This document shows, in pieces, positions 4,318 to 50,610 of a DNA stretch of 64,000 nt (positions are counted from its first letter, which is position 1; each line of letters starts with the position of its first letter). The translations under genes and the position numbers were made by a program. The stretch comes from Phaeovibrio sulfidiphilus. Lineage in GTDB: Bacteria > Pseudomonadota > Alphaproteobacteria > Rhodospirillales > Rhodospirillaceae. The stretch spans positions 620,001 through 684,000 of the forward strand of contig NZ_JACZHT010000001.1 of NCBI RefSeq assembly GCF_014861485.1, written 5' to 3'. The notes under the pieces were generated by a model. The model had not been told where the DNA came from, ran no database searches, and worked only from the letters and a program-made list of their open reading frames with translations.

Positions 4318-5241
4318 ATGAAAAAGAGACTGCTGTGTTTTGGGTTCGGATATACGGCCCGCCATCTCGCCCGCCACCTGGACGCGGACGAGTGGGACGT
4401 GGCGGGCACGACCCGAACCGGGCTCTGGGCGGAGGGGCTGTCCCGGTACCACCCGGACGTCCGCATTCTCCGGCTGCGGGGGCACGACGACAGCTTTCTG
4501 CGGGACTTCCAGGCGGTCCTCGAGGACTGCACCCATCTCCTGGTCACCGCCCCCCCGGATGAGAACGGCGATCCGTTCCTGCGGGACTATGCGTCGGTCC
4601 TTGAGAAGGCGCCCGTGGACTGGATCGGCTACACGTCCTCCACGGGAGTCTACGGCGACACCCGGGGGGACTGGGTGGACGAGACCTCCCCCTGCCGCCC
4701 GGGCTCGGAGCGCGCGAAGCTCCGCCTCGAGGCCGAGGACGCCTGGCGCGCGTTCGGCGCCCGAACCGGCATGCCTGTGACCGTGTTCCGGCTGTCCGGG
4801 ATCTACGGGCCGGGCCGGTGCACGGTGTCGGACCTCCTGCGGATCGAAAGTGCGGCCCGGGGCACGCCCCCCGTTCCGATCGCAAAGGAAGGGCACGTGT
4901 TCTCGCGCATTCATGTGGACGACATCGCCCGGGCCGTGCACGCCAGCATGGACGCGCCGGGCGCGGGCGGGCTCTACAACCTGGCGGATGACGAACCGGC
5001 TCCGCACGCGGATGTGGTCCGCTACTCTTATGAGCTTCTGGGGATGCCCGCCCCGGAGACCCTGGAGTTCGAGGACGCCTCCCGGACCATGTCGCCCATG
5101 GCCCTGTCCTTCTGGTCCGAATGCCGGCGGGTGCGCAATGACCGGATGAAATCCGACCTGGGGGCCGAGCTCCTGTATCCCAGCTACCGGGAAGGCCTGG
5201 CGGCCGTCCTGGAGGAACAGCGGCTCCCCGAAGCCGAGTGA
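4318..5241 (+). CDS. NAD(P)-dependent SDR-family epimerase/dehydratase (YeeZ-like)
   Basis: This 307-residue extended SDR begins with a Rossmann strand and glycine-rich loop (LLCFGFGYTARHLARHL, residues 5-21). It shows YTSSTGVYGDTRGDWVDE (about 104-121) with the SSTGVYG element of YeeZ/Gal-epimerase-like proteins. FRLSGIYGPGR and HVDDIARAVHASM complete the family pattern. The active-site Tyr is probably that of GVYG. Substrate is not predictable. GAGG lies seven bases before the ATG. The gene stands alone between the shared regulatory region and a long repeat-rich spacer. Confidence 0.85.
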   Translation: MKKRLLCFGFGYTARHLARHLDADEWDVAGTTRTGLWAEGLSRYHPDVRILRLRGHDDSFLRDFQAVLEDCTHLLVTAPPDENGDPFLRDYASVLEKAPVDWIGYTSSTGVYGDTRGDWVDETSPCRPGSERAKLRLEAEDAWRAFGARTGMPVTVFRLSGIYGPGRCTVSDLLRIESAARGTPPVPIAKEGHVFSRIHVDDIARAVHASMDAPGAGGLYNLADDEPAPHADVVRYSYELLGMPAPETLEFEDASRTMSPMALSFWSECRRVRNDRMKSDLGAELLYPSYREGLAAVLEEQRLPEAE

Positions 5242-5651
5242 CGCGGCGCGACGCGGAGGCACACGAGCGGGCGATGTCACCGGGCCAGCGCCGGTCGATG
5301 CGGCCCCACGCGGGCGAGGACCGGACCCTGCGACCCCGCGCGGAGGCCTCTGACGGACACCGGTCCACACGACCCGACGCCGAGACGCGCCAGCGGGCAC
5401 CGGATGATACCAAAGGACGCGGGATGTCACCGCGTGACGCTCTGGACGCCACAAAGGGGCGCCGGGAGCCCCGCAGCGCCAGGGATCGCGAACAGACACC
5501 CCACGCCCCAGCGAGATGCGAAGACGCGCCGACCAGCACCCCATGCCTCGGCGGGATGGGCAGACACGCAGGCGGCACCCCATGCCCCGACGGCGATGCA
5601 AGGGATCACGGGCGGGCGCCCCACGCCCGGGCGATGCGAAGGCGCCCCGAC

Positions 5652-5820
5652 GGGTGCCACGGGGCGATACCCGGCAAGGGGGCGGAACGGCACAACGAGG
5701 GATCACGGGCGGGCACCCCCGTGAGGGCGGGTGCCACGGGGCGATACCCGGCAAGGGGGCGGAGCGGCACAACGAGGGATCACGGGCGGGCACCCCCGTG
5801 AGGGCGGGTGCCACGGGGCG
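5652..5820. repeat. 77-bp direct tandem repeat, about 2.2 copies
   Basis: Copies at 5652-5728 and 5729-5805 differ at only one position that I can see (GGAACGG versus GGAGCGG). A third copy begins at 5806 and runs ~15 bases (GGGTGCCACGGGGCG). Each unit holds the complementary words GGCACCC and GGGTGCC, so it can fold into a hairpin across the unit boundary. The near identity suggests a recent duplication. Confidence 0.85.
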
Positions 5821-5967
5821 GGACCGGGCAAGGCGAGGCAGTGCGGCACGACGAGGGATGACACCGGGCGGCGCCGGGCCCTACGACCCCACGCGAAGGC
5901 ATCGGACGGGCCCCGGTCCATACGACCCCGTGCAAGAGCCACGCGGGCAGGCATACACACCCCCACG

Positions 5968-6110
5968 CACCATGACCCCACGCGGGGGGCATATGCGAGC
6001 ACACTCACCCCCAGGCACCATAAACCCACGCGGCGGCATATGCGGGCACACTCACCGGCAGGCATCATGACGCGGTACAGGGGCACATGACGGGCACACT
6101 CACCGCCAGG
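5968..6110. repeat. 48-bp degenerate tandem repeat, three copies
   Basis: Units start at 5968, 6016 and 6063 (48, 47 and 48 bases). Each begins CACCAT or CATCAT and ends GGGCACACTCACC(G/C)(G/C)CAGG or a close variant. The first two share GCATATGCG in the middle. Divergence between units is larger than for the 77-bp repeat, so this array is older. Confidence 0.75.
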
Positions 6111-6170
6111 CACCCTGGCGGCCCAGAGGCACTCCGGGCACAAAGCCCCCGACACAGCCCGACACCGGGC

Positions 6171-6204
6171 AAAAAAAACCCCGCTTGCAAAAATACAAGC
6201 GGGG
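6171..6204 (-). terminator. Rho-independent terminator (minus strand)
   Basis: CCCCGCTTG (6179-6187) and CAAGCGGGG (6196-6204) form a perfect 9-bp stem. The eight A at 6171-6178 read as U8 on the minus strand. The nearest upstream minus-strand gene, lysR, ends about 400 bases away, which suggests a separate transcript in between. Confidence 0.88.
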
Positions 6205-6347
6205 TAAGTCGGAACAGGGAGGTTTCACGTCTGGGAGACGTAGGATACTGGAGACCAGCACCCTGGAGCCGGGCAGAAGCCCGGAACAAGATGGAAACCG
6301 CGAGGCTTCCGAAATCCTGTGAAGCGTCACCGCCTCTCTAAGAACAG
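6171..6347 (-). ncRNA. Candidate structured small RNA with its own terminator
   Basis: Read on the minus strand, this non-coding segment folds into a nested structure. AGAGAGG (6339-6333) pairs with CCTCCCT (6222-6216) with one mismatch. TTCAC (6323-6319) pairs with GTGAA (6228-6224), and AGGAT (6318-6314) with ATCCT (6246-6242). Inside lie perfect hairpins CCGGGC/GCCCGG (6269-6284) and ACGTCT/AGACGT (6227-6241). It ends in a strong intrinsic terminator. A GTGACG/TAAAAT pair spaced 16 bases lies upstream near 6378-6405. The long stem with side hairpins recalls 6S RNA, but I cannot match the 6S consensus, so the family is open. No coding frame fits. Confidence 0.5.
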
Positions 6348-6607
6348 TTTTACCCCTGAAAGCCCGCGAAAGCCATATATTTTATTTCATGGGAGCCATG
6401 CGTCACGCGCATGTGTGACTCGGACGGCCCACGCCCGGCGGCAGCCCCCCCTGAGCCGCATCCCCGGGGAAAAGGCGCCCCGTGGCCCCGTCCTGGCCCT
6501 GCCCCACCCCACCCGGAGGCATCCGGACACCCGCCGAACCTGCGCCCCCCTCTCCGGCCCCGGCCCGGCCGTCTTGGCCAGACATCCCGACCCCGGCCCT
6601 GGGAAGG

Positions 6608-7549
6608 TCAGGTTCCCAGATCCTCGGGGGCGTTCAGCCCGCAGGCCTTCAGCTCGCTGATCAGAAAGTCCCGGAACACCTCGACCCGTTTCCGGTAGCG
6701 CATTTCCTTGGTGTACAGGAAATAGAGGCTCAGGGAGGGCACGTCGAAGCCCGGCAGCGAGACGATCTCGTCGCACGGGGAGTCGCACAGGAAGTACCCC
6801 GGAAGGGCCGCAATGCCCATTCCGTTGCCCACTGCCCGATGTATGGCCAGAAGGTTGTTGATCCGCAGCGCCGGCTGACGGGGCGGGCTCTTGGGGGGGA
6901 GCCCGGCGCTCAGGAGCCAGTTCAGGTTGTCCGCCGGCGGATCGAGCTCGTTGCCATACGCCAGGATCTTGTGCCGGTCCAGATCCTCGACCCCGCGGGG
7001 GACTCCGTAGCGCTGGAGGTACTCGCGGGAGGCCAGAACCCGGTAGGGCATCCGCACCAGGTGTCGTTGGATCAGGTCCTGCTGCTCGGAGGCGATAAAG
7101 CGCACCGCCAGGTCCGCCCGACGGGTTCCCAGGTCGATGGACACATCCGTCAGGGTGACCGACAGCTCCAGCTTCGGGTAGCGGTCCGTGAGGGTTTTCA
7201 GGCGCGGCGTCAGCCAGAGGGTTCCGAACGCCAGCGAGGTGCAGATGGTGAGGGGGCCGGACACATCGTCCGCCTGCTCGTCCAGGCGGGACTCCAGCTC
7301 GGTCAGGTTGGAGACGATGGACCGGGTGGTCTCGAACAGAAGCGTCCCCTGCTCCGTCAGCACCAGGCCCCGGGGATGACGCAGGAAAAGAGGCGCACCC
7401 AGCGCCTCTTCCAGGGCCCCGATCTGGCGGGAGACCGCCGACTGGGACAGGTTCAGGAAATCCCCCGCCCGGGTGAAACTTCCCGCCTCCGCCACGGTGT
7501 GAAACACCCGCAGCTTGTCCCAGTCCATCACATCCAGTCTTTGCGGCAT
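6608..7549 (-). CDS. LysR-family transcriptional regulator next to trxB
   Basis: The 313-residue protein has an N-terminal winged helix-turn-helix (about residues 8-67: DWDKLRVFHTVAEAGSFTRAGDFLNLSQSAVSRQIGALE with LFLRHPRGLVLTEQG). A periplasmic-binding-like effector domain follows (about 95-295). It lies 45 bases downstream of trxB on the same strand, an arrangement common in alphaproteobacteria, so both are probably co-transcribed. The effector and targets are unknown; control of redox genes would be a guess from linkage. The ATG at 7549 has GAGGG very close. Met8 is an alternative start. Confidence 0.93.
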   Translation of the reverse strand: MPQRLDVMDWDKLRVFHTVAEAGSFTRAGDFLNLSQSAVSRQIGALEEALGAPLFLRHPRGLVLTEQGTLLFETTRSIVSNLTELESRLDEQADDVSGPLTICTSLAFGTLWLTPRLKTLTDRYPKLELSVTLTDVSIDLGTRRADLAVRFIASEQQDLIQRHLVRMPYRVLASREYLQRYGVPRGVEDLDRHKILAYGNELDPPADNLNWLLSAGLPPKSPPRQPALRINNLLAIHRAVGNGMGIAALPGYFLCDSPCDEIVSLPGFDVPSLSLYFLYTKEMRYRKRVEVFRDFLISELKACGLNAPEDLGT

Positions 7550-7594
7550 ATCCCTCGTCCGGACGTCTTGCAGGTCGCCCCGGCCCGACCCGGG

Positions 7595-8548
7595 CTAGGC
7601 TCCTGCAGACCCCGTCTCCTCAAGAAAGCGAAGCGCCTCCAGGGCGGCCATGCACCCGGTCCCCGCCGCCGTGACGGCCTGCTGGAACACGGGATCCTGA
7701 ACGTCCCCTGCGGCAAAAACTCCGGGCACACTGGTCTTCGTGCTTCCCGGAACGGTCCGGATGTATCCGGCGTCGTCGGTGTCCAGCTGGTCGCGGACCA
7801 GGTCCGTGTTCGGCGTGTGGCCGATGGCGATGAACACGCCCTCCACCGGCAGCACCTCCTCGGCGCCCGTGTGGACGTTTCGCAGCCGCACGCCGGTCAC
7901 CCCGGCCGGCTCTCCGCCGCCCTCGATCTCCACGACCTGACGGTCCCAGAGAACCCGGATCTTCGGATGGGACAGCAGGCGGTCCTGGAGGGTCTGCTCC
8001 GCGCGCAGCGAGTTCCGGCGGTGGATCAGGGTCACCCGTGATGCGGGACCGGCCAGGAAGAGGGCCTCCTCCACCGCCGAGTTGCCTCCGCCCACCACGG
8101 CGACCTCCCGGCCGCGGAAGAAGAAGCCGTCACAGGTGGCGCAGGCCGAAACGCCGCGGCCCATCCAGGTGACCTCGCTGTCCAGGCCCAGCCAGCGCGC
8201 CGAGGCGCCGGTGGCCAGGATCAGGGTGTCGGCAATGTAGCGATCCCCGCTGTCCCCCACCGCCACAAACGGCCGGGTGGAGAGATCCAGGGACACAATG
8301 TGGTCCTGGCAGAAGACAGTGCCCATCCGCTCGGCCTGAACGCGCATGCGCTCCATCAGCTCGGGCCCCTGGATCGGATCCTCGAACCCGGGAAAGTTCT
8401 CAACCTCGGTGGTGATCGTCAGCTGCCCGCCGGGCTGCATCCCGCTGACGACGATCGGCTTCAGAGCCGCCCGGGCGGCATAGATCGCCGCCGTGCAACC
8501 CGCGGAGCCGGATCCGAGAATGAGCGTTTTCGTAATGTGGTCGGCCAT
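7595..8548 (-). CDS. trxB: Thioredoxin-disulfide reductase
   Basis: This 317-residue flavoprotein reduces thioredoxin with NADPH in the cytoplasm. It has the FAD-binding GSGSAGCTAAIYAARA (about residues 12-27). The redox-active pair is in SACATCDGFF (CATC, about 135-138). The NADPH-binding GGGNSAVEEALFL follows (about 153-165), and the C-terminal FAD motif is GVFAAGDVQDPVFQQAVTAAGTGCMAA. The length is that of low-molecular-weight bacterial TrxB. It starts a two-gene unit with the LysR regulator. Confidence 0.97.
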   Translation of the reverse strand: MADHITKTLILGSGSAGCTAAIYAARAALKPIVVSGMQPGGQLTITTEVENFPGFEDPIQGPELMERMRVQAERMGTVFCQDHIVSLDLSTRPFVAVGDSGDRYIADTLILATGASARWLGLDSEVTWMGRGVSACATCDGFFFRGREVAVVGGGNSAVEEALFLAGPASRVTLIHRRNSLRAEQTLQDRLLSHPKIRVLWDRQVVEIEGGGEPAGVTGVRLRNVHTGAEEVLPVEGVFIAIGHTPNTDLVRDQLDTDDAGYIRTVPGSTKTSVPGVFAAGDVQDPVFQQAVTAAGTGCMAALEALRFLEETGSAGA

Positions 8549-9039
8549 GGTGCTGAGCTACCCCCAAATACTTGAACTGTACCGGTTTCATTTAGAGAGC
8601 CCGCGGCCCGTCGTCAAAGGCGATCTGCAAGAAAACGCCGGGGAGGCACCGGAACAGGCCCCGAAACGCCCGGCGGGAGACATCATCGGACCGAAACCGG
8701 AGGTTCAGACCGCTGCGGATGCCCGTATCACCCGGACCATGCGGCCACCCCGGGGTGCAAGCCCGTTCCCCCGGGCCCGCCATCATGCCGGGCCCCACGG
8801 CCTCCCCGAACCGCGACGGACCAAACCGCCCTGAGGCGGACAAGAAACGCCCCGCCCGGGCGTGGAGTGTACCAGACTTGGGCAAAGTGGGGAATCCCCG
8901 GGGGTGAGCCCGTCAAACCGGGAGTGTAGCTCCCGCCAGCCCCATCGGTCGGGCATGGCCCGGGCAGACACACACGACCGTCGGCCCGGCAGGGGCGGAC
9001 GCCCCCACCCGCGCATGACCGTGGGCCTGGCGCGGGCCC
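8549..9039. other. Spacer between trxB and the nuclease gene
   Basis: About 490 bases without a supported gene. It holds two small hairpins: GGGAG/CTCCC near 8925-8939, and GGGGCG/CGCCCC at 8992-9005. The second could end the minus-strand nuclease transcript but has no U-tract. The trxB promoter should lie in the part near 8550-8650; I see no clear -35/-10 pair. Confidence 0.5.
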
Positions 9040-9879
9040 TCACGGATCCGTGATCGGGCCCTCGATCATCTCCGGATGGGTCACCTCGATCCAGGGCCCG
9101 TTCTTTTCGCGCAGCCAGCCGCGCACCCGCACCGTCTTCCCGGTCCAGGCCAAAGGGTCGCGCCCGAGAGCGGAAAACCGTTCGAGAAGCCGCTCGGGGA
9201 TGGACACGGTAAAATCCCGGCGCCAGTCGCGCCCGAAGTTCAGGTACACGGTCCGGCCCGCCCGGGCGGCGGACACCACCGTTCCCTCCACCACCTGGAA
9301 GGTGCCGATCTCGGAGTCCAGACGGGCAGGCGGACGCACGGCGTACCAGTCCAGCGCCCAGATCCCGGCGCGGGCGGCCCGGGCGTCGGCCTCGCGCCCG
9401 TACAGGGCTTCGGTCAGGGCCCGGTTGTCGGGAAAGGTGTAAACCCGCGCAAGCCCGCGGGAGATCATCTCGCCCTGGATCCAGACCCCGTCGTCCGTGA
9501 CAAGGTGGGCCAGGATCCGGCCGTGCCGGTCCTCGGTCGCGCCCCCGGCGTGAAGGGTCACGGTCCGGCCGTCCACCAGGTCCACAAGAGCCTGCCGGGA
9601 TTCAGGCGCCAGGGGCCACTCGGCAAACCCCTTGCGCCCCAGGGGCAGCTTGGGCGCCTGAATGCCCACCAGCCGGACCTCGCGGCCCGTATCCAGAACC
9701 ACTGTGTCGCCGTCGACCACATCGGTCACCCTGTGGCGCCCGATGGACGGCAGCTCAGCAGGATCCCGGACCCGGGACAGGGCGTCGGCCCCGTCGGCGG
9801 CCGCCCCGGCCGGACCGGACCGGACAAGCCCCGCACACACGAGGCCCAGGCAGAAAATCAGGACAAACATCCGGTACAT
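9040..9879 (-). CDS. Secreted thermonuclease-family (SNase) protein
   Basis: A signal peptide (MYRMFVLIFCLGLVCAGLV.., cleavage probably after ..AGAAA) is followed by an SNase-like OB-fold. The conserved segments are DVVDGDTVVLDTGREVRLVGIQAPKL (Asp pair for Ca2+ and the catalytic-Arg region), ATEDRHGRILAHLVTDDGVWIQGEMISRGLARVY (second Arg region) and ALYGREADARAARAGIWA. Staphylococcal nuclease cleaves DNA and RNA with Ca2+. Many alphaproteobacterial homologues of this layout, with a C-terminal extension holding GRDWRRDFT, are exported and uncharacterised. The ATG at 9879 has GGAG at a spacing of eight; the GTG at 9897 is an alternative. Confidence 0.82.
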   Translation of the reverse strand: MYRMFVLIFCLGLVCAGLVRSGPAGAAADGADALSRVRDPAELPSIGRHRVTDVVDGDTVVLDTGREVRLVGIQAPKLPLGRKGFAEWPLAPESRQALVDLVDGRTVTLHAGGATEDRHGRILAHLVTDDGVWIQGEMISRGLARVYTFPDNRALTEALYGREADARAARAGIWALDWYAVRPPARLDSEIGTFQVVEGTVVSAARAGRTVYLNFGRDWRRDFTVSIPERLLERFSALGRDPLAWTGKTVRVRGWLREKNGPWIEVTHPEMIEGPITDP

Positions 9880-9905
9880 GGGAGGGGCTCCGGACACCAG
9901 GACAG

Positions 9906-9938
9906 AAAAAAGCGCCCCCCGGGAGGGCCGGGAGGCGC
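9906..9938 (-). terminator. Intrinsic terminator of the OmpA-type lipoprotein gene
   Basis: On the minus strand GCGCCTCCCGG pairs with CCGGGGGGCGC (one G-U) around a short loop, followed by six U (A6 at 9906-9911). It lies 30 bases after the stop at 9968. Confidence 0.8.
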
Positions 9939-9967
9939 AGGCGGATCGCCTTTCGGAAAACCGGCGC

Positions 9968-10816
9968 TTACTGCTCGAGGGTGATCTCGACGCGACGGTT
10001 CAGGCGGTTGGCCACGTTCTCGCCGGTGGCAACGGCCAGGTCGGCCTCACCCTTGGCGCGCACCACGATGGCGCTCTGGGGCACGCCGCGCTTCACCAGA
10101 GCCTTGACGACCGCCTCGGCCCGGCGCTGCGACAGGGCCAGGTTGGTCTTCTCGGAGCCGACGGTGTCCGTGTAGCCGGTCACGACCAGGCGGGGCTTCA
10201 GGCTGTTGGCCTTGCTGGTGTTGTAGAGGGCAACAGCGGTCTCGATGGTGCGCACGCCCTCGCGGTCAACGGCGGTGGAGCCGGTGGCGAAGTGGATGCC
10301 GGTCGGGGAGCCGCGCAGAACGATCATGGCCTCCTCGTAGTCGGCCCGGCATTCCTGGATGCGGATGGGCTGACGGTTCTCGGCGGCTTCCTCGGTCCAG
10401 CAGTCAAAGGAGACCTGCGCCTTGGCCGAGGCATCCGGGTTGGTGGACGTCACGCCCGAGGCGAGGACGCGAACCAGCTCCGCGCGGGCGGCGGCGAGTT
10501 CCGGAGCGAGGCTGCCGGTCTCGAGCGTCGCGGGATCCGTCGGCGACGGAGTCCGGCCCTGGGCCGCCATCTTGGCCTTGCCGGTGTAGTACTCGACCGA
10601 TGCCCAGTCTCCACCGCTGTACTGCCCGCCGTACTCGTAGTCGGCCAGGGCCACGTACTCTTTCATCAGAGCGGCGTCGAACGCGGTTCCGGTGCAGGGC
10701 ATCTGGGAGACAGCCTCGTAATCCCACGGGTCTTCGGTAATCCAGTTGTAGTCGCTGGATGCACACCCGGTGAGAAGAGCGGCAGCGGCAACCCCGATAG
10801 CAAGCCTTTTGACCAT
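9968..10816 (-). CDS. OmpA-family peptidoglycan-binding lipoprotein
   Basis: The protein starts MVKRLAIGVAAAALLTGCASS, a lipoprotein signal with lipobox LTGC (Cys18), and the C-terminal ~110 residues are an OmpA/MotB domain. The peptidoglycan-binding motif TGYTDTVGSEKTNLALSQRRA (about 203-223) and the closing NRRVEITLEQ are intact. Such proteins tether the outer membrane to peptidoglycan. The ATG at 10816 is preferred because GAAGGA lies nine bases before it. ATG 10825 overlaps that site, and longer upstream versions have no ribosome site. A long leader and the divergent rlmN promoter lie upstream. Confidence 0.9.
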   Translation of the reverse strand: MVKRLAIGVAAAALLTGCASSDYNWITEDPWDYEAVSQMPCTGTAFDAALMKEYVALADYEYGGQYSGGDWASVEYYTGKAKMAAQGRTPSPTDPATLETGSLAPELAAARAELVRVLASGVTSTNPDASAKAQVSFDCWTEEAAENRQPIRIQECRADYEEAMIVLRGSPTGIHFATGSTAVDREGVRTIETAVALYNTSKANSLKPRLVVTGYTDTVGSEKTNLALSQRRAEAVVKALVKRGVPQSAIVVRAKGEADLAVATGENVANRLNRRVEITLEQ

Positions 10817-11041: not shown

Positions 11042-11070
11042 TTGCAAGTGGGACTTCTCCCTTATATAGC
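11042..11070 (+). promoter_or_regulatory. Candidate rlmN promoter giving a very short leader
   Basis: TTGCAA (11042-11047) and TATAGC (11065-11070) are 17 bases apart. Transcription would start near 11077, only about eight bases before the GTG start of rlmN, and no Shine-Dalgarno sequence lies there. This fits a leaderless or near-leaderless mRNA. Confidence 0.5.
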
Positions 11071-11084
11071 AGAATGATGATAAA

Positions 11085-12242
11085 GTGAACCTTATCAACT
11101 TAACGAAGAACGAAGTAAAGACCTTCCTCACCGAGCAGGGAGAGAGTCCTTTTCGCGCAAAACAGCTCTGGCACTGGATCTATCACCAGGGTGCGACGGA
11201 CTTCTCGCGCATGACATCGCTTGGGGCCGCCCTGCGGGAGCGGCTGGCGGAGACCTGCACCCTCGCCCGCCCGGAGATCGTGCGCACCCAGACCTCGGAG
11301 GACGGGACCGTCAAGTGGCTGCTTCGCTTCTCGGACGGGCGCGAGGCCGAAATGGTCTACATCCCCGAAACGGACCGGGGCGCCCTGTGCATCTCCTCCC
11401 AGGTGGGCTGCACGCTGGACTGCCGCTTCTGTCACACCGGCACCCAGCCGTTCCTGCGCAACCTCACCGTCGCCGAGATCGTCGGGCAGTTCCTGGTGGC
11501 CCGCGACCTGTTCGGCGAGTGGCCCACGCCCACCGACGAGGCCCGCAAGCTCTCGAACATCGTGGTGATGGGCATGGGCGAGCCCCTGCACAACTTCGAC
11601 AACGTCCGTGACGCTCTCAATATCCTGATGGACGACGAGGGCACGGCCCTGTCGCGCCGGCGCATCACCCTGTCCACCGCCGGAGTCGTCCCCATGTTCG
11701 GGCGCTGCGGAACCGAGCTGGGCGTCCGGCTTGCGATCTCGCTGCACGCCGCCACGGACGAAATCCGCGACGCCATCATGCCCATCAACAAGAAGTACCC
11801 CCTGGCGGAGCTGATGGCCGCCTGCCGCGCCTACCCCGGAGCGCGCAACGCCCGGCGGATCACGTTCGAGTACCTTCTGCTGGACGGGATCAATGATTCG
11901 GATGCGGACGCCCGGGAGCTGATCCGTCTTGTGCGGGGCATTCCGTGCAAGTTCAACCTGCTGCCGTTCAACGCCTGGCCCGGAGCGCCCTACCAGCCCT
12001 CCAGCGAGGCCCGGATGGAACGGTTCGCCGCGCTTCTGAACGACGCGGGCTTCACGTCGCCGATCCGCCAGCCCCGGGGGCGCGACATCCTGGCCGCCTG
12101 CGGTCAGCTGCGCAGCGAGTCCATGCGGGAGTCCCTGCGCGAGGCCGGGCAGACCGGGGAAACCGGAACGGAAAATGCAGAGGGTGCAGGGGCCGGGGGC
12201 GCAACCGACGCTACGGGTCCGTGCGGACCGGCTGCATCCTGA
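11085..12242 (+). CDS. rlmN: 23S rRNA (adenine-2503-C2)/tRNA methyltransferase RlmN
   Basis: This radical-SAM enzyme methylates C2 of A2503 in 23S rRNA and A37 in some tRNAs. The CxxxCxxC cluster motif is visible as [11 protein letters not shown] (about residues 109-119). [25 protein letters not shown] and [11 protein letters not shown] are family hallmarks, and the second catalytic Cys lies in [10 protein letters not shown] near the C-terminus. After about residue 353 the protein carries an extra ~30-residue Gly/Thr/Ala-rich tail not typical of the family. GTG at 11085 is the only plausible start; the in-frame sequence upstream offers none. Confidence 0.96.
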
Positions 12243-12550
12243 CCCCGTTCCCGTGACCGAAGCCTGACCGGATCCTTCCCGGATCCGGTCCCGCACGGAA
12301 AAGCCCGACAGACCATGGGGTGTCCGCCATCCGTGGACTCTCCCGGAGCGGGACCGGCCGGAACGGATTGCCTGTGCAACCCGGTCCGATCCCGTTGCAA
12401 CACTCTCCCGGCACACGGCTGCCCCGCCGGGGAGGGGCCGCCCGATGACCCCCAGGACACGGAGCGCCCCGGGAGACACGGAACGCGCACCCCCGCATAA
12501 GGGACCGGCGCGCAGCCCGGGGCAAACACCCGGACCCGCAGGCTCAAAGC
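12243..12550. other. Spacer with a convergent hairpin
   Basis: This is the junction of rlmN and the minus-strand argD. It contains a perfect 10-bp inverted repeat, GACCGGATCC (12266-12275) and GGATCCGGTC (12281-12290), around TTCCC. There is no U-tract on either side, so it is a terminator-like element only by position. The rest is C/G-rich with no supported gene. Confidence 0.6.
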
Positions 12551-13957
12551 CTAGGGCCGGGGGTCATCCGGAACCGCCGGAGCGCCGGATCCGTCCGCGT
12601 CCGGAGAGCCGGTCACGCCGCCGGGCCAGCCGGGGGCGAAAGCGGGCTCCGCCTCCGCCGGGTCCGGACGTCCCAGAACCGCCGACGCAGAGAGAGCCGG
12701 AACAGCAACAGCCGCCGGATCCTCCGGAGACTCCGCAGCGGATTCGGCAGGCGCCGCCGGAAGGGCAGAGCCCTCCCGCAGGGGCTCCAGAAGCCGCGTG
12801 ACCCGGGCCACGATGTCATCAATCTGCGCGCCGTCACACACCAGGGGCGGCAGCAGGCGGATCGTGCTGTCCCGGGTGACGGTCAGAAGCAGGCGCTCCT
12901 CCTCCAGGGCGCGGCCCACGAGAATGCCGCAAGGCCGGGTCATCTCGATCCCCACCAAAAGCCCCTGCCCCCGGATGGTCACGACCCCGGGATGGGAGTC
13001 CAGAGCTGCCCGGAGTCCGTCCAGCAGGCGGCGCCCCAGTTCGGCAGCCCGTTCCGGCAGCCGGTCCCGGGCCATGATATCGAGAACCGTGCAGGCCACC
13101 CGGCAGGCGAGCGGATTGCCTCCGAAGGTCGAGCCGTGAAGACCCGGCTCAAAAAGCTCGGCGGCAGGGCCGTGGGCAAGGCACGCACCGATGGGGATGC
13201 CGTTGCCCAGGGCCTTGGCCAGCGTCATCACATCGGGAACAATGCCCGCGTGCTGGTGGCCGAACCAGGCGCCGGTGCGCCCCAGCCCGGTCTGGATCTC
13301 GTCCACCATCAGAAGCCAGCCCTGGCGGTCGCACAGATCGCGCAGCTCCTGCAGATAGCCGGGACGGGCCACCCGGACACCGCCCTCGCCCTGAACCGGC
13401 TCGACCAGAACCGCGACGATCTCCGGATCGCGCTCGGCCGCCCGGCGCACGGCCTCCATGTCGTTGTAGGGAACGCGAACAAACCCGGGCAGGAGAGGCT
13501 GGAAACCGAACTGGGCGGAGCGGCTTCCGGTGGCGGACAGAGTTGCCAGGGTCCGGCCGTGGAAGGCGTTCTCCATCACCAGGATGCGGGGGTTGGAGAC
13601 CTGCCGGCGATGGCCGTGAAGGCGGGCCAGCTTCAGGGCGGCCTCGTTGGCCTCGGCTCCGGAGTTGCAGAAGAACGCCTTGCCCATGCCGGACAGGGCG
13701 CACAGACGCTTGCCCAGACGCTCCTGCCAGCCGACCCGGAAAATGTTGGACGTGTGCAGCAAGATCCCCGCCTGCCCGGCGATGGCATCCCCGACCTCCG
13801 GGTGGGCGTGGCCGAGGCTGGTCACCCCCACTCCGGCCATGGCGTCCAGATACTCCACGCCGTTCTCATCCCACAGGCGGGCGCCGCTCCCGCGGACAAA
13901 CGATACGGGCTGACGCGCGTAAGCCTTCATAAGGTATGACGTGTCGGGATCCATCAT
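12551..13957 (-). CDS. argD: Acetylornithine/succinyldiaminopimelate-type aminotransferase
   Basis: This class-III PLP aminotransferase transfers the amino group in the arginine pathway (N-acetylornithine + 2-oxoglutarate). Recognisable are FFCNSGAEANEAALKLAR (phosphate-binding, about 94-111), NAFHGRT (about 129-135), LVEPVQGEGGV, MVDEIQTGLGRTG, and LAKALGNGIPIGA with the Schiff-base Lys (about 250). GSTFGGNPLAC is the other cofactor segment. The fold ends near residue 395. The remaining ~73 residues are an Ala/Pro/Ser-rich tail absent from typical ArgD. The start overlaps the pdxY stop by four bases. Substrate assignment within class III is by overall likeness. Confidence 0.85.
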   Translation of the reverse strand: MMDPDTSYLMKAYARQPVSFVRGSGARLWDENGVEYLDAMAGVGVTSLGHAHPEVGDAIAGQAGILLHTSNIFRVGWQERLGKRLCALSGMGKAFFCNSGAEANEAALKLARLHGHRRQVSNPRILVMENAFHGRTLATLSATGSRSAQFGFQPLLPGFVRVPYNDMEAVRRAAERDPEIVAVLVEPVQGEGGVRVARPGYLQELRDLCDRQGWLLMVDEIQTGLGRTGAWFGHQHAGIVPDVMTLAKALGNGIPIGACLAHGPAAELFEPGLHGSTFGGNPLACRVACTVLDIMARDRLPERAAELGRRLLDGLRAALDSHPGVVTIRGQGLLVGIEMTRPCGILVGRALEEERLLLTVTRDSTIRLLPPLVCDGAQIDDIVARVTRLLEPLREGSALPAAPAESAAESPEDPAAVAVPALSASAVLGRPDPAEAEPAFAPGWPGGVTGSPDADGSGAPAVPDDPRP

Positions 13958-46539: not shown

Positions 46540-46887
46540 TCAGCGCCCGGCGTCGGGCCGGGATGCCTTTTCCTCGAGCCCGGACATTCCGAAGCGCGCC
46601 TCGAGCTCGGCCCAGACGCGCTGCGGGTCCACGCCCACATCGGCCCACAGAACGGTCAGATGATAGAGAAGATCCGCACTTTCCGAAACCACCTCGTCGG
46701 GGCCCTGGGCAAGAGCGGCAGAGGCGACCTCGAAGGCCTCCTCCCCCATCTTGTTGGTGATCTTGACCCGCCCCTTAGAAAAGAGGCGAGCCGTGTAGGA
46801 GGTGCTGTCATCGGCCCCCTTGCGGGACAGGACAACAGAGTGCAGCCTGTCCAGCACGTGGGGAAGCCCGGAGGACCGCTCCGTCAT
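46540..46887 (-). CDS. hisE: Phosphoribosyl-ATP diphosphatase
   Basis: HisE hydrolyses PR-ATP to PR-AMP, the second step of histidine synthesis. The 115-residue all-helical MazG-like protein shows [33 protein letters not shown] and [18 protein letters not shown], with the acidic metal ligands EExxE and ExxDLLYH. It starts at ATG 46887, overlapping the hisF stop by four bases. Confidence 0.95.
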
Positions 46888-47673: not shown

Positions 47674-48396
47674 CTATTTGAGAATCCCGAGGGCAGCCCC
47701 GAGATCAAGAGTGCCGTCATACAGGGCACGACCGCTGATGACCCCGACAATCCCGGAGCCCTCGGCCGACTTGACCGCCCGGATATCCGAAAGGTCAGTC
47801 ACGCCGCCCGAAACGATCACCGGCGTCGTGATCCCCTCGGCGAGGGTCCGCGACGCGTCGATGTTGACGCCCTGCATGGCGCCGTCGCGCTCGATGTCCG
47901 TATGGATGATGGCGCTCACGCCCGCATCCTCGAACAGGAGGGCCAGGTCATGGGCCGTGACGTTGGACGTTTCCGCCCAACCCTCGACCGCCACCTTGCC
48001 CCCACGCGCATCAATGCCCACCGCGATCCGGCCCGGCCAGGCCTGGCAGGCCTCCTTGACAAAGGCCGGATCCCGAAGGGCAACTGTTCCGAGTATCACA
48101 CGCCGGACGCCCAGTCCGATCCAGCGCTCGATGGTTTTCATGGTCCGGATCCCGCCGCCCAGCTGAACCGGGATCTCCACCTCGGCCAGGATGGACCGCA
48201 CGGCATCCTCGTTCACCGGCGTCCCGGTAAAGGCTCCGTTCAGGTCCACCACATGAAGCCACTCACACCCGGCGTCGACAAACTGCCGGGCCTGTTGCGC
48301 AGGGTCATCACCAAACACCGTTACGTTGTTGATGTCGCCCCGCAAAAGGCGGACGCACTGCCCGTCTTTCAGGTCAATTGCTGGAAACAGAATCAT
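47674..48396 (-). CDS. hisA: ProFAR isomerase HisA
   Basis: HisA isomerises ProFAR to PRFAR in histidine synthesis. The 240-residue TIM barrel shows [21 protein letters not shown] (catalytic Asp8), [42 protein letters not shown] and [17 protein letters not shown] (catalytic Asp near 130). ATG 48396 matches the family N-terminus; the GTG at 48417 is an alternative. hisF follows closely. Upstream, where hisH is expected, there is only spacer. Confidence 0.96.
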
Positions 48397-48718
48397 GGTT
48401 CTCGTCTTCTCATCCACCTGGTGCCGCCCCTGCCGGGCTTTTTCGACGAATGCCGAAACTACACTAAACTGGAGCGTTTGCCGCCAAAACGTGAGGGGGA
48501 AAATCTATTATTACCATTTTCTCACTGCATCACGCTCCGCACTCCCGCGCCGCGGGAGGGACCGGAGCCGAGAACCTCGACCGCCTCACGGCCGGGGCCG
48601 CACTGTTTCCAGCCGGGATTTCCCAATGATACCGGGACGCATCGCCCCCTCACACGCTCACACTCACTCCGGTCCTGCCGGAGACCGCGGACCTTATCAC
48701 TTTAGGGGGAGCATGGGA

Positions 48719-48916
48719 ATGCACCGTTTCGCGACGGAACGCCTGTGTTTCCCCGGGACTGCGGACCCGGCGCACGGGCAGCGCAACGCAAAGAAGAATT
48801 TTCTTCTTGACCTTGAGGCCCTTCCAACCCATTTGAAGGACACAACGGATGCGAGTTACGGTCTACCATCACGGGTATCGTTGCAAACGATAAAGACTGC
48901 CCGCCAGACGCGATAA
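48719..48916 (+). CDS. Possible small protein (65 residues), unknown function
   Basis: ATG 48719 is preceded at seven bases by AGGGGGAG, one of the better ribosome sites in the window. The frame encodes MHRFATERLCFPGTADPA.. ending ..TIKTARQTR, with no recognisable domain or membrane segment. Codon third positions are less GC-biased than in known genes, which argues for caution. A terminator-like A/T-rich hairpin follows at 48960. It runs opposite to the his genes. It could equally be a decayed fragment or chance. Confidence 0.28.
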   Translation: MHRFATERLCFPGTADPAHGQRNAKKNFLLDLEALPTHLKDTTDASYGLPSRVSLQTIKTARQTR

Positions 48917-48959
48917 ATCGCTACCGTATTTCGCCACTGAGCTCCCGGTCGGCGGGTGA

Positions 48960-48988
48960 AAAAAGAACACGCGATAAGCGCTCTTTTT
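48960..48988. terminator. A/T-rich hairpin, terminator-like on both strands
   Basis: AAAAAGA (48960-48966) pairs with TCTTTTT (48982-48988), with CGC/GCG inside the loop. U-rich ends are available on both strands. On the plus strand it would end a transcript of the small ORF. On the minus strand it would follow hisB. Confidence 0.4.
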
Positions 48989-49310
48989 CGCTTCGGAAAC
49001 CGGACGGACCACGTTATGAAGATTGATCACAATGCCTGAAGGTTATCGCGTTCTCCCCGCTCTGCCCCGACCGGGACACTCCGGAAACGGGCAGCCGCAT
49101 GCGGCGGAGCGACGCGTGCAGCATCTCCCGCCGGTCGTCCGTGCCGGCGACAGGGGTTATTCCTTGCGAGATCAAGAGTTCGGTGCCACAAAACGGGCCG
49201 GACACAACGGGTGGGGCCTCCGCCCGGGACAGCGCTGCACCGGTGACACACCGGCCCGAGGGCGCGCAACGCGGACAATCCGCGCTGCGCTGTGGACAGG
49301 GTCCGGGTGG

Positions 49311-49928
49311 TCAGGACGCGAGGGGCTGGATGCCCTTGCTGTGAAGAGCGCCCTTGGTCGAGGGCACGCTGTCCGCCGCGCGCTCATCCACGGTCCAGGC
49401 CTGACGGAGGGCTCGCGCAAGAGCCTTGAAGCTGGCCTCGACGATATGATGGTTGTTTTCGCCGTAGAGGGAAGAAACATGAAGAGTTAGACCGGCCGTC
49501 TGGGAAAAGGCCTGAAACCACTCGCGAAACAGCTCGGTATCCATCCTGCCGACTGTGGGGCGCGTGAACCGGACATCCCAGACCAGATAGGGTCGGTTGG
49601 AAAAGTCCAGAGCGACGCGACACAAGGCTTCATCCATGGGAATCAAGGCAGAGCCGTACCGGTAAATACCCTTGCGAACTCCGAGTGCCTCGGAAACGGC
49701 CTGGCCGATCGCAAGGCCCACGTCCTCGGTGGTGTGGTGATCGTCGATGTGAATATCGCCCTTCGCCCGAACCCGAAGGTCCATGAGGCTGTGACGGGAA
49801 AGCTGTTCCAGCATGTGGTCCAGAAAACCAACGCCGGTAGCAATGTCGTAGCTCCCATTTCCGTCGAGATCGAGGGTGACCTCTACGAAGGTTTCTCTTG
49901 TTTCACGAGTAATCGTGGATTTTCTCAC
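49311..49928 (-). CDS. hisB: Imidazoleglycerol-phosphate dehydratase
   Basis: HisB dehydrates IGP to imidazole acetol phosphate. The 205-residue monofunctional form has both Mn-binding histidine clusters: [39 protein letters not shown] and its pseudo-repeat [32 protein letters not shown] 49928 has GGAG eight bases before it and starts [15 protein letters not shown] 49934 is possible. The N-terminal codons contain a partial parS-like word, TGTTTCACGAGT. The next gene on this strand should be hisH but is not found. Confidence 0.96.
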
Positions 49929-50064
49929 CGGCAATACTCCACCTTTTCCCCGGTATGCGGAACATTACCGTCGAACAACTCCGGGGAAGATTTATCAACC
50001 GATCTCTGAATTTATCCCTCAGGTGTCAAAAGACTGGAAACGACGTCTATGACACTGTAGGGTA

Positions 50065-50160: not shown

Positions 50161-50610
50161 GTGAAAAGGTCAAAGAGTGAAGAGACGGGACCCGATCCCG
50201 TAGACGTACATGTCGGCTGTCGACTCCGGTTACGCCGCACCCTTCTGAATCTCTCCCAGGAACAGCTCGCAAACTCGGTTGGCGTGACCTTCCAGCAGAT
50301 CCAGAAGTATGAGCGTGGTTCCAACAGGATCAGCGCAAGCCGCCTGTATGATATCTCGAAGGTGCTGGGTGTCCCCGTATCCTTCTTTTTCGAGGATATC
50401 GGCCAAGATATCATCGACAGCAGGAAGCTCAAGGTCTCCCCGGCAGACTCTGTCGCCCTCCTTGAGGAAGCTCCGGTCCCGGCTTACGAGCGGGATCCGT
50501 TTCAGAAAAGTGAAACTCTCGAGCTCATCCGCGCGTACTGGCGACTGCAAAACAGCGCTGTCCGCCAGAACGCCCTTGCACTGCTCAAGAGCCTGACCAG
50601 CCGGGAATAA
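50161..50610 (+). CDS. XRE-family helix-turn-helix regulator
   Basis: The 149-residue protein has an HTH_3 domain at about residues 15-75: VGCRLRLRRTLLNLSQEQLANSVGVTFQQIQKYERGSNRISASRLYDISKVLGVPVSFFFEDI. Homologues of this size and pattern are abundant in alphaproteobacteria. The C-terminal part (LELIRAYWRLQNSAVRQNALALLKSL) is helical, perhaps for dimer formation. The start is GTG 50161. A good AGGAGG lies 28 bases upstream, nearer to a short overlapping frame (ATG 50148, ten codons ending at 50180) that could be a coupled leader. Confidence 0.88.
   Translation: MKRSKSEETGPDPVDVHVGCRLRLRRTLLNLSQEQLANSVGVTFQQIQKYERGSNRISASRLYDISKVLGVPVSFFFEDIGQDIIDSRKLKVSPADSVALLEEAPVPAYERDPFQKSETLELIRAYWRLQNSAVRQNALALLKSLTSRE

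Follow-up and report, generated by a model that had tools for sequence, protein, structure and literature searches.

On its minus strand, the 64,000-nt stretch of Phaeovibrio sulfidiphilus DNA analysed here (the window) carries hisB, a gap, hisA, hisF, hisE and a gene that we take, from its sequence, to encode a HIT protein, and beyond hisB it carries the divergent genes hslV and what we take, again from sequence and not from a family search, to be hslU (Table 1). Each of hisB, hisA, hisF and hisE passes at least one NCBIfam cut-off, as does hslV, and the gene order given by the first-pass annotation stands. An HTH_3-type regulator gene lies between hisB and hslV. The gap, which occupies the usual site of hisH, measures 893 bp when hisA is read from its GTG start and 914 bp (48397-49310) when it is read from the ATG seven codons further in.

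Table 1. Features discussed in the text; positions refer to the window unless another stretch is named.
Feature	Position	Strand	Observations
Spacer at usual hisH site	48418-49310	.	No RNA family, GATase motif or hisH remnant found
hisF, cyclase subunit, 258 aa	46884-47660	-	TIGR00735 match; D11, D130, R5, E46, K99, E167 retained; Q123E, C124R, F74T, R249N and others altered
hisA	47674-48417	-	Intact; NCBIfam match; 0/54 conserved columns deviating
hisB	49311-49934	-	Intact; NCBIfam match; 1/43 conserved columns deviating
hisE	46540-46887	-	Intact; NCBIfam match; 0/13 conserved columns deviating
HTH_3-type regulator gene	50161-50610	+	
trpG gap	L167, about 11069-11776 (own genome, C23:190001-208000)		In place between ATPase-like gene and trpD
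pabB	L156 (own genome, C29), 9007-10152		PRK07093 type
1942-aa ORF	L157 (own genome, C30), 4732-10560		
Isochorismate synthase-like gene	L157 (own genome, C30), 11329-12789		
trpD of relative G035, two ORFs	L169 (C1:405001-420000), 9376-9633 and 9575-10426		Overlapping, in different frames

The first-pass annotation had described the spacer as rich in inverted repeats, a description that we could not reproduce: the repeat search returned no inverted repeat of at least 12 nt (shorter arms being uncounted), the folding z-score of -1.29 is unremarkable, an Rfam search gave no match, and structured RNA and inverted repeats were set aside as having nothing of note to show. Two terminator-like matches compare with 1.4 expected, there are no promoter-like matches, and the small ORFs of 60 and 63 aa have no Pfam match. 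The GATase motif G-x-C-x-G is absent from every frame of the gap, in agreement with the earlier description. Of the further suggestion that the spacer represents a deleted or eroded hisH, loss in place is supported and erosion is not: in a tblastn comparison with 20 HisH proteins the gap scores at most 24.3 bits, a value equalled or exceeded by 11 of 100 shuffles, the best profile match (E about 0.5) is indistinguishable from chance, and the single match between the gap and hisH at E 0.004 was obtained before the shuffle control.

Absence of hisH and changes in HisF

hisH is absent from the assembly. The HisH profile TIGR01855, which matched in 14 of 14 control genomes, has no match in any of the 31 contigs (2,585,463 bases, 97.61% complete, such that about 2.4% may be missing), and the five PF00117 GATases of P. 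sulfidiphilus are CarA, GuaA, PyrG, a PuuD-like protein and a PRK09065-like protein; no HisH subunit of a HisFH heterodimer is thus encoded in this assembly. Nor is HisH fused to HisF, the 258-aa ORF consisting of the cyclase domain alone with no GATase domain.

Within the family, HisF was searched for in 73 genomes and HisH in 37 of those. hisH adjoins hisA in all 20 loci chosen from genomes with HisF, and it lies between hisB and hisA in each of the 16 chosen loci that include hisB. In two relatives, G008 and G010, it is found away from hisF elsewhere in the genome, and relocation therefore does occur in this family. TIGR01855 matched in 56 of the 61 genomes of the relatives set, P. sulfidiphilus counted, and among the five negative genomes P. 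sulfidiphilus alone has a HisF over the cut-off. For two of the others, G003 and G017, completeness is about 80%, and the absence of both HisH and a HisF over the cut-off is uninformative. The remaining two, G021 and G035 of genus g22, are listed as 100% complete and are without HisG, HisD, HisI, HisH or a HisF over the cut-off; from this gene content they are likely to be histidine auxotrophs. In P. sulfidiphilus HisG, HisD and HisI were found; with HisB, HisA, HisF and HisE, the pathway is otherwise intact as far as searched.

HisF of P. sulfidiphilus scores 336.7 bits against the curated TIGR00735 cut-off of 294.55, the lowest score among 60 family genomes over the cut-off. When compared with 104 other HisF sequences (25 from the same family and 79 from named loci), it deviates at 15 of the 102 columns with at least 95% conservation, and none of the 104 reaches 13; the highest, L114, deviates at 12 columns with each sequence left out of its own reference and at 9 otherwise. 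The controls from this genome, HisA, HisB and HisE, are normal (Table 1), so that, of the four his proteins compared, only the one that lost its partner is altered. The codon-position G+C pattern of hisF is normal for coding DNA.

The changes, in Thermotoga maritima numbering, include Q123E, R249N, C124R and F74T. Both Gln123 and Arg249, which contact HisH in the HisFH heterodimer, are invariant in 104 of 104 other HisF proteins and are replaced here by Glu and Asn. The interface residues R5, E46, D98, K99 and E167 are kept, and four of these (R5, E46, K99 and E167) presumably make up the ammonia gate. Also kept are D11 and D130, whose catalytic roles are described in a passage of PMC11350729. 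Asp98 and Glu167, both in place in P. sulfidiphilus, contact HisH according to excerpts of PMC8115485 and PMC9032424, the latter of which also reports that in T. maritima mutation of E167 weakened HisH binding most and that fR249 and hW123 form a hinge between the subunits. fGln123 is described, in an excerpt of PMC10729027, as contacting the HisH-bound glutamine in the active conformation and as calculated to aid no chemical step. The change in HisF lies partly on its HisH-facing side, and we infer that the altered residues may help rather than merely drift. Enrichment of changed columns at the barrel bottom, for a residue set drawn by hand, has p 0.12 for P. sulfidiphilus, which is not significant, and 0.046 for the second hisH-less species described below.

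HisF of Oligella urethralis

Sixteen of 80 named HisF loci have no HisH in the stretch examined, and only one of the 80, that of the betaproteobacterium Oligella urethralis DSM 7531 (L087), contains both hisB and hisA without a hisH between the two. HisH was searched for genome-wide in four of the 16, of which three (L068, L081 and L092) do have HisH elsewhere. The fourth, the Oligella genome of about 2.3 Mb, encodes four PF00117 GATases, named TrpG, CarA, GuaA and PyrG by frame length and score; none is HisH, their maximum being 16.3 bits against the HisH profile, compared with 206-319 bits for the HisH proteins of three comparison genomes.

Oligella HisF is changed at 13 of the 102 conserved columns, and eight of the changed columns are common to Oligella and P. 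sulfidiphilus, five of them with the same residue (Q123E, C124R, L170V, I199T and I226V). Unlike P. sulfidiphilus, Oligella keeps TrpG and R249 and loses D98. The overlap has a hypergeometric probability of 2.7e-5, or 0.0057 when columns are weighted by their variability elsewhere, and weakens at stricter conservation (P 0.012 at 98%, 0.021 at 99% and 0.13 for invariant columns). The largest overlap among other HisF pairs is three; L114 shares four columns with P. sulfidiphilus.

In the HisF tree, the P. sulfidiphilus sequence groups with those of alphaproteobacteria, and the Oligella sequence falls among beta- and gammaproteobacteria. Both are on long branches (1.73 and 1.80, respectively; median 0.26), and those of L117 and L114 exceed either. 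A common ancestry of the two HisF proteins does not give the best tree and appears in 8% of 200 bootstrap trees; the joint-origin tree is not rejected (AU p 0.313), which leaves transfer of HisF possible. We make no claim for TrpE of Oligella, which deviates at 6 of 85 columns, because TrpD of the same species deviates too (10 of 61).

The trpG site and the nitrogen source of HisF

A second glutaminase subunit is missing from P. sulfidiphilus, in that neither TrpG nor PabA is among its five PF00117 GATases. In the relative G035, a gene that we take to encode a metal ATPase is followed by trpG, trpD and trpC; in P. sulfidiphilus the same ATPase-like gene is followed by about 0.7 kb with no TrpG match and then by trpD and trpC (Table 1). 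The former partners are kept: TrpE scores 513.5 bits, just under its cut-off of 517.7, and PabB passes its own (NF005486). TrpC is also kept, as is TrpD, which was named by position and by its match to the ORF of relatives. TrpE deviates at 10 of 89 columns that do not vary among 15 others, more than any other of the 16 sequences. TrpC deviates at none of 26 (15 sequences) and TrpD at 1 of 52 (12 sequences). The comparison was limited to matches of at least 38% identity, and some of its TrpC rows are partial. PurQ was considered as a further loss and is present; with PurQ and CarA both kept, the loss does not extend to every glutaminase subunit.

We propose a model, to which we give a probability of about two in three, whereby HisF works alone on free ammonia after loss of hisH in place. 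In this model, selection would maintain HisF as an imidazole glycerol phosphate (IGP) synthase that acts by itself, free ammonia would replace the ammonia channelled from HisH, and TrpE and PabB would probably use free ammonia too. The in-place loss of trpG with trpE and pabB kept suggests that three such steps run on ammonia. Consistent with the model, an excerpt of PMC11350729 states that HisF on its own forms imidazole glycerol phosphate in vitro when given ammonium salts, and passages of PMC5919458 describe a Klebsiella hisH mutant whose reaction was restored by high ammonium, and a simpler HisH-free route proposed for early metabolism. Deletion of hisH from Corynebacterium glutamicum had no effect on growth, according to an unpublished observation mentioned in an excerpt of PMC3896937; ammonia use in vivo is proposed for HisF of both species, and C. 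glutamicum, unlike P. sulfidiphilus, still encodes hisH. Compared with the HisF-HisH IGP synthase of T. maritima and E. coli, P. sulfidiphilus has a HisF of the same barrel family with the catalytic aspartates and several interface residues, but it has no HisH and is changed at Gln123, Arg249 and positions 74 and 124. The HIS7 fusion of yeast likewise has a HisF-type cyclase, whereas P. sulfidiphilus HisF has no fused glutaminase domain. The first-pass annotation had left four options, namely a relocated hisH, another amidotransferase, free ammonia and a need for histidine; free ammonia, its use being our inference from these observations, is the best supported of them.

One alternative, which we regard as unlikely, is that a recruited glutaminase, likeliest one of two spare class I GATases on contig C30, partners HisF (as well as TrpE and PabB), the changed HisF surface fitting the new partner. 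P. sulfidiphilus does have two GATases besides CarA, GuaA and PyrG, and its HisF has changed at some surface residues with other interface residues left as they were. However, both spare enzymes score only about 11 bits against the HisH profile, and in a comparison with 14 picked stretches of relatives the PuuD-like GATase has counterparts of 64-67% identity in four genomes, G010 (one with a HisH of its own), G017, G021 and G035, and the PRK09065-like GATase has a 45% relative in G003, so that neither need have arrived with the loss of hisH. Moreover, Oligella shares HisF changes with P. sulfidiphilus and has no GATase beyond the four named above.

A further reading, to which we attach a similarly low likelihood, is that the histidine pathway, along with that of tryptophan, is decaying in a host-fed organism, hisH and trpG being merely the first genes to go. 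Two glutaminase genes are gone from a genome of 2.6 Mb, and the relatives G021 and G035 are without all five his genes searched (HisH, F, G, D and I). This completeness of loss in the two pathway-losing relatives, however, together with the presence of HisG, D, I, B, A, F and E in P. sulfidiphilus and the restriction of change to HisF among HisF, A, B and E, is what makes a need for histidine the disfavoured option. The trp genes searched are present as well, those his and trp proteins that were compared are normally conserved save HisF and TrpE, and HisF keeps both catalytic aspartates and most other positions checked, in a gene with a normal codon-position GC pattern. Least probable of all, and disfavoured by the whole-genome search and the changed HisH-facing side of HisF, is an hisH that lies elsewhere, unassembled, or was lost from view by misassembly of the locus: the assembly is in 31 contigs at 97.6% completeness and hisH does lie apart from hisF in G008 and G010, but a 750 kb contig encloses the hisH gap and one of 301 kb the trpG gap, hisH and trpG would each have had to move separately into the missing part, and with hisH present HisF would not be expected to lose both Q123 and R249.

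Returning to stand-alone use of ammonia by HisF, we tentatively speculate, with somewhat less than even confidence, that HisH-free HisF might be a recurrent evolved form with its own signature (Q123E, C124R, loss of F74 and A95, I199T), reached in both P. sulfidiphilus and Oligella. On this speculation, the enzyme in the P. sulfidiphilus lineage would belong to a broader change: IGP synthase, anthranilate synthase and aminodeoxychorismate synthase would all have lost their glutaminase subunits and would now use free ammonia, giving a present-day example of the 'semi-enzymatic' histidine route put forward for early metabolism. A limited literature search turned up no account of such changes in a HisF that naturally has no HisH. 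HisFH serves as a model of allostery and of ammonia channelling. A natural HisF that evolved without HisH would reveal which residues serve only the partner and what the use of free ammonia requires, and two glutaminase subunits lost from one genome, with change concentrated in each former partner, would directly test reversion to ammonia.

Chorismate-binding proteins and trpD

PabB of P. sulfidiphilus has a weak PF00425 match of 184.5 bits. Of six relatives searched, G010, G018, G021, G034 and G035 each have a second chorismate-binding protein, at 291-301 bits against PF00425, and G013 shows one chorismate-binding protein only. P. sulfidiphilus also encodes an isochorismate synthase-like protein, whose gene is adjoined by an ORF of 1942 aa. 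In G035, trpD is split between two overlapping ORFs (Table 1), which from the sequence is perhaps a frameshift.
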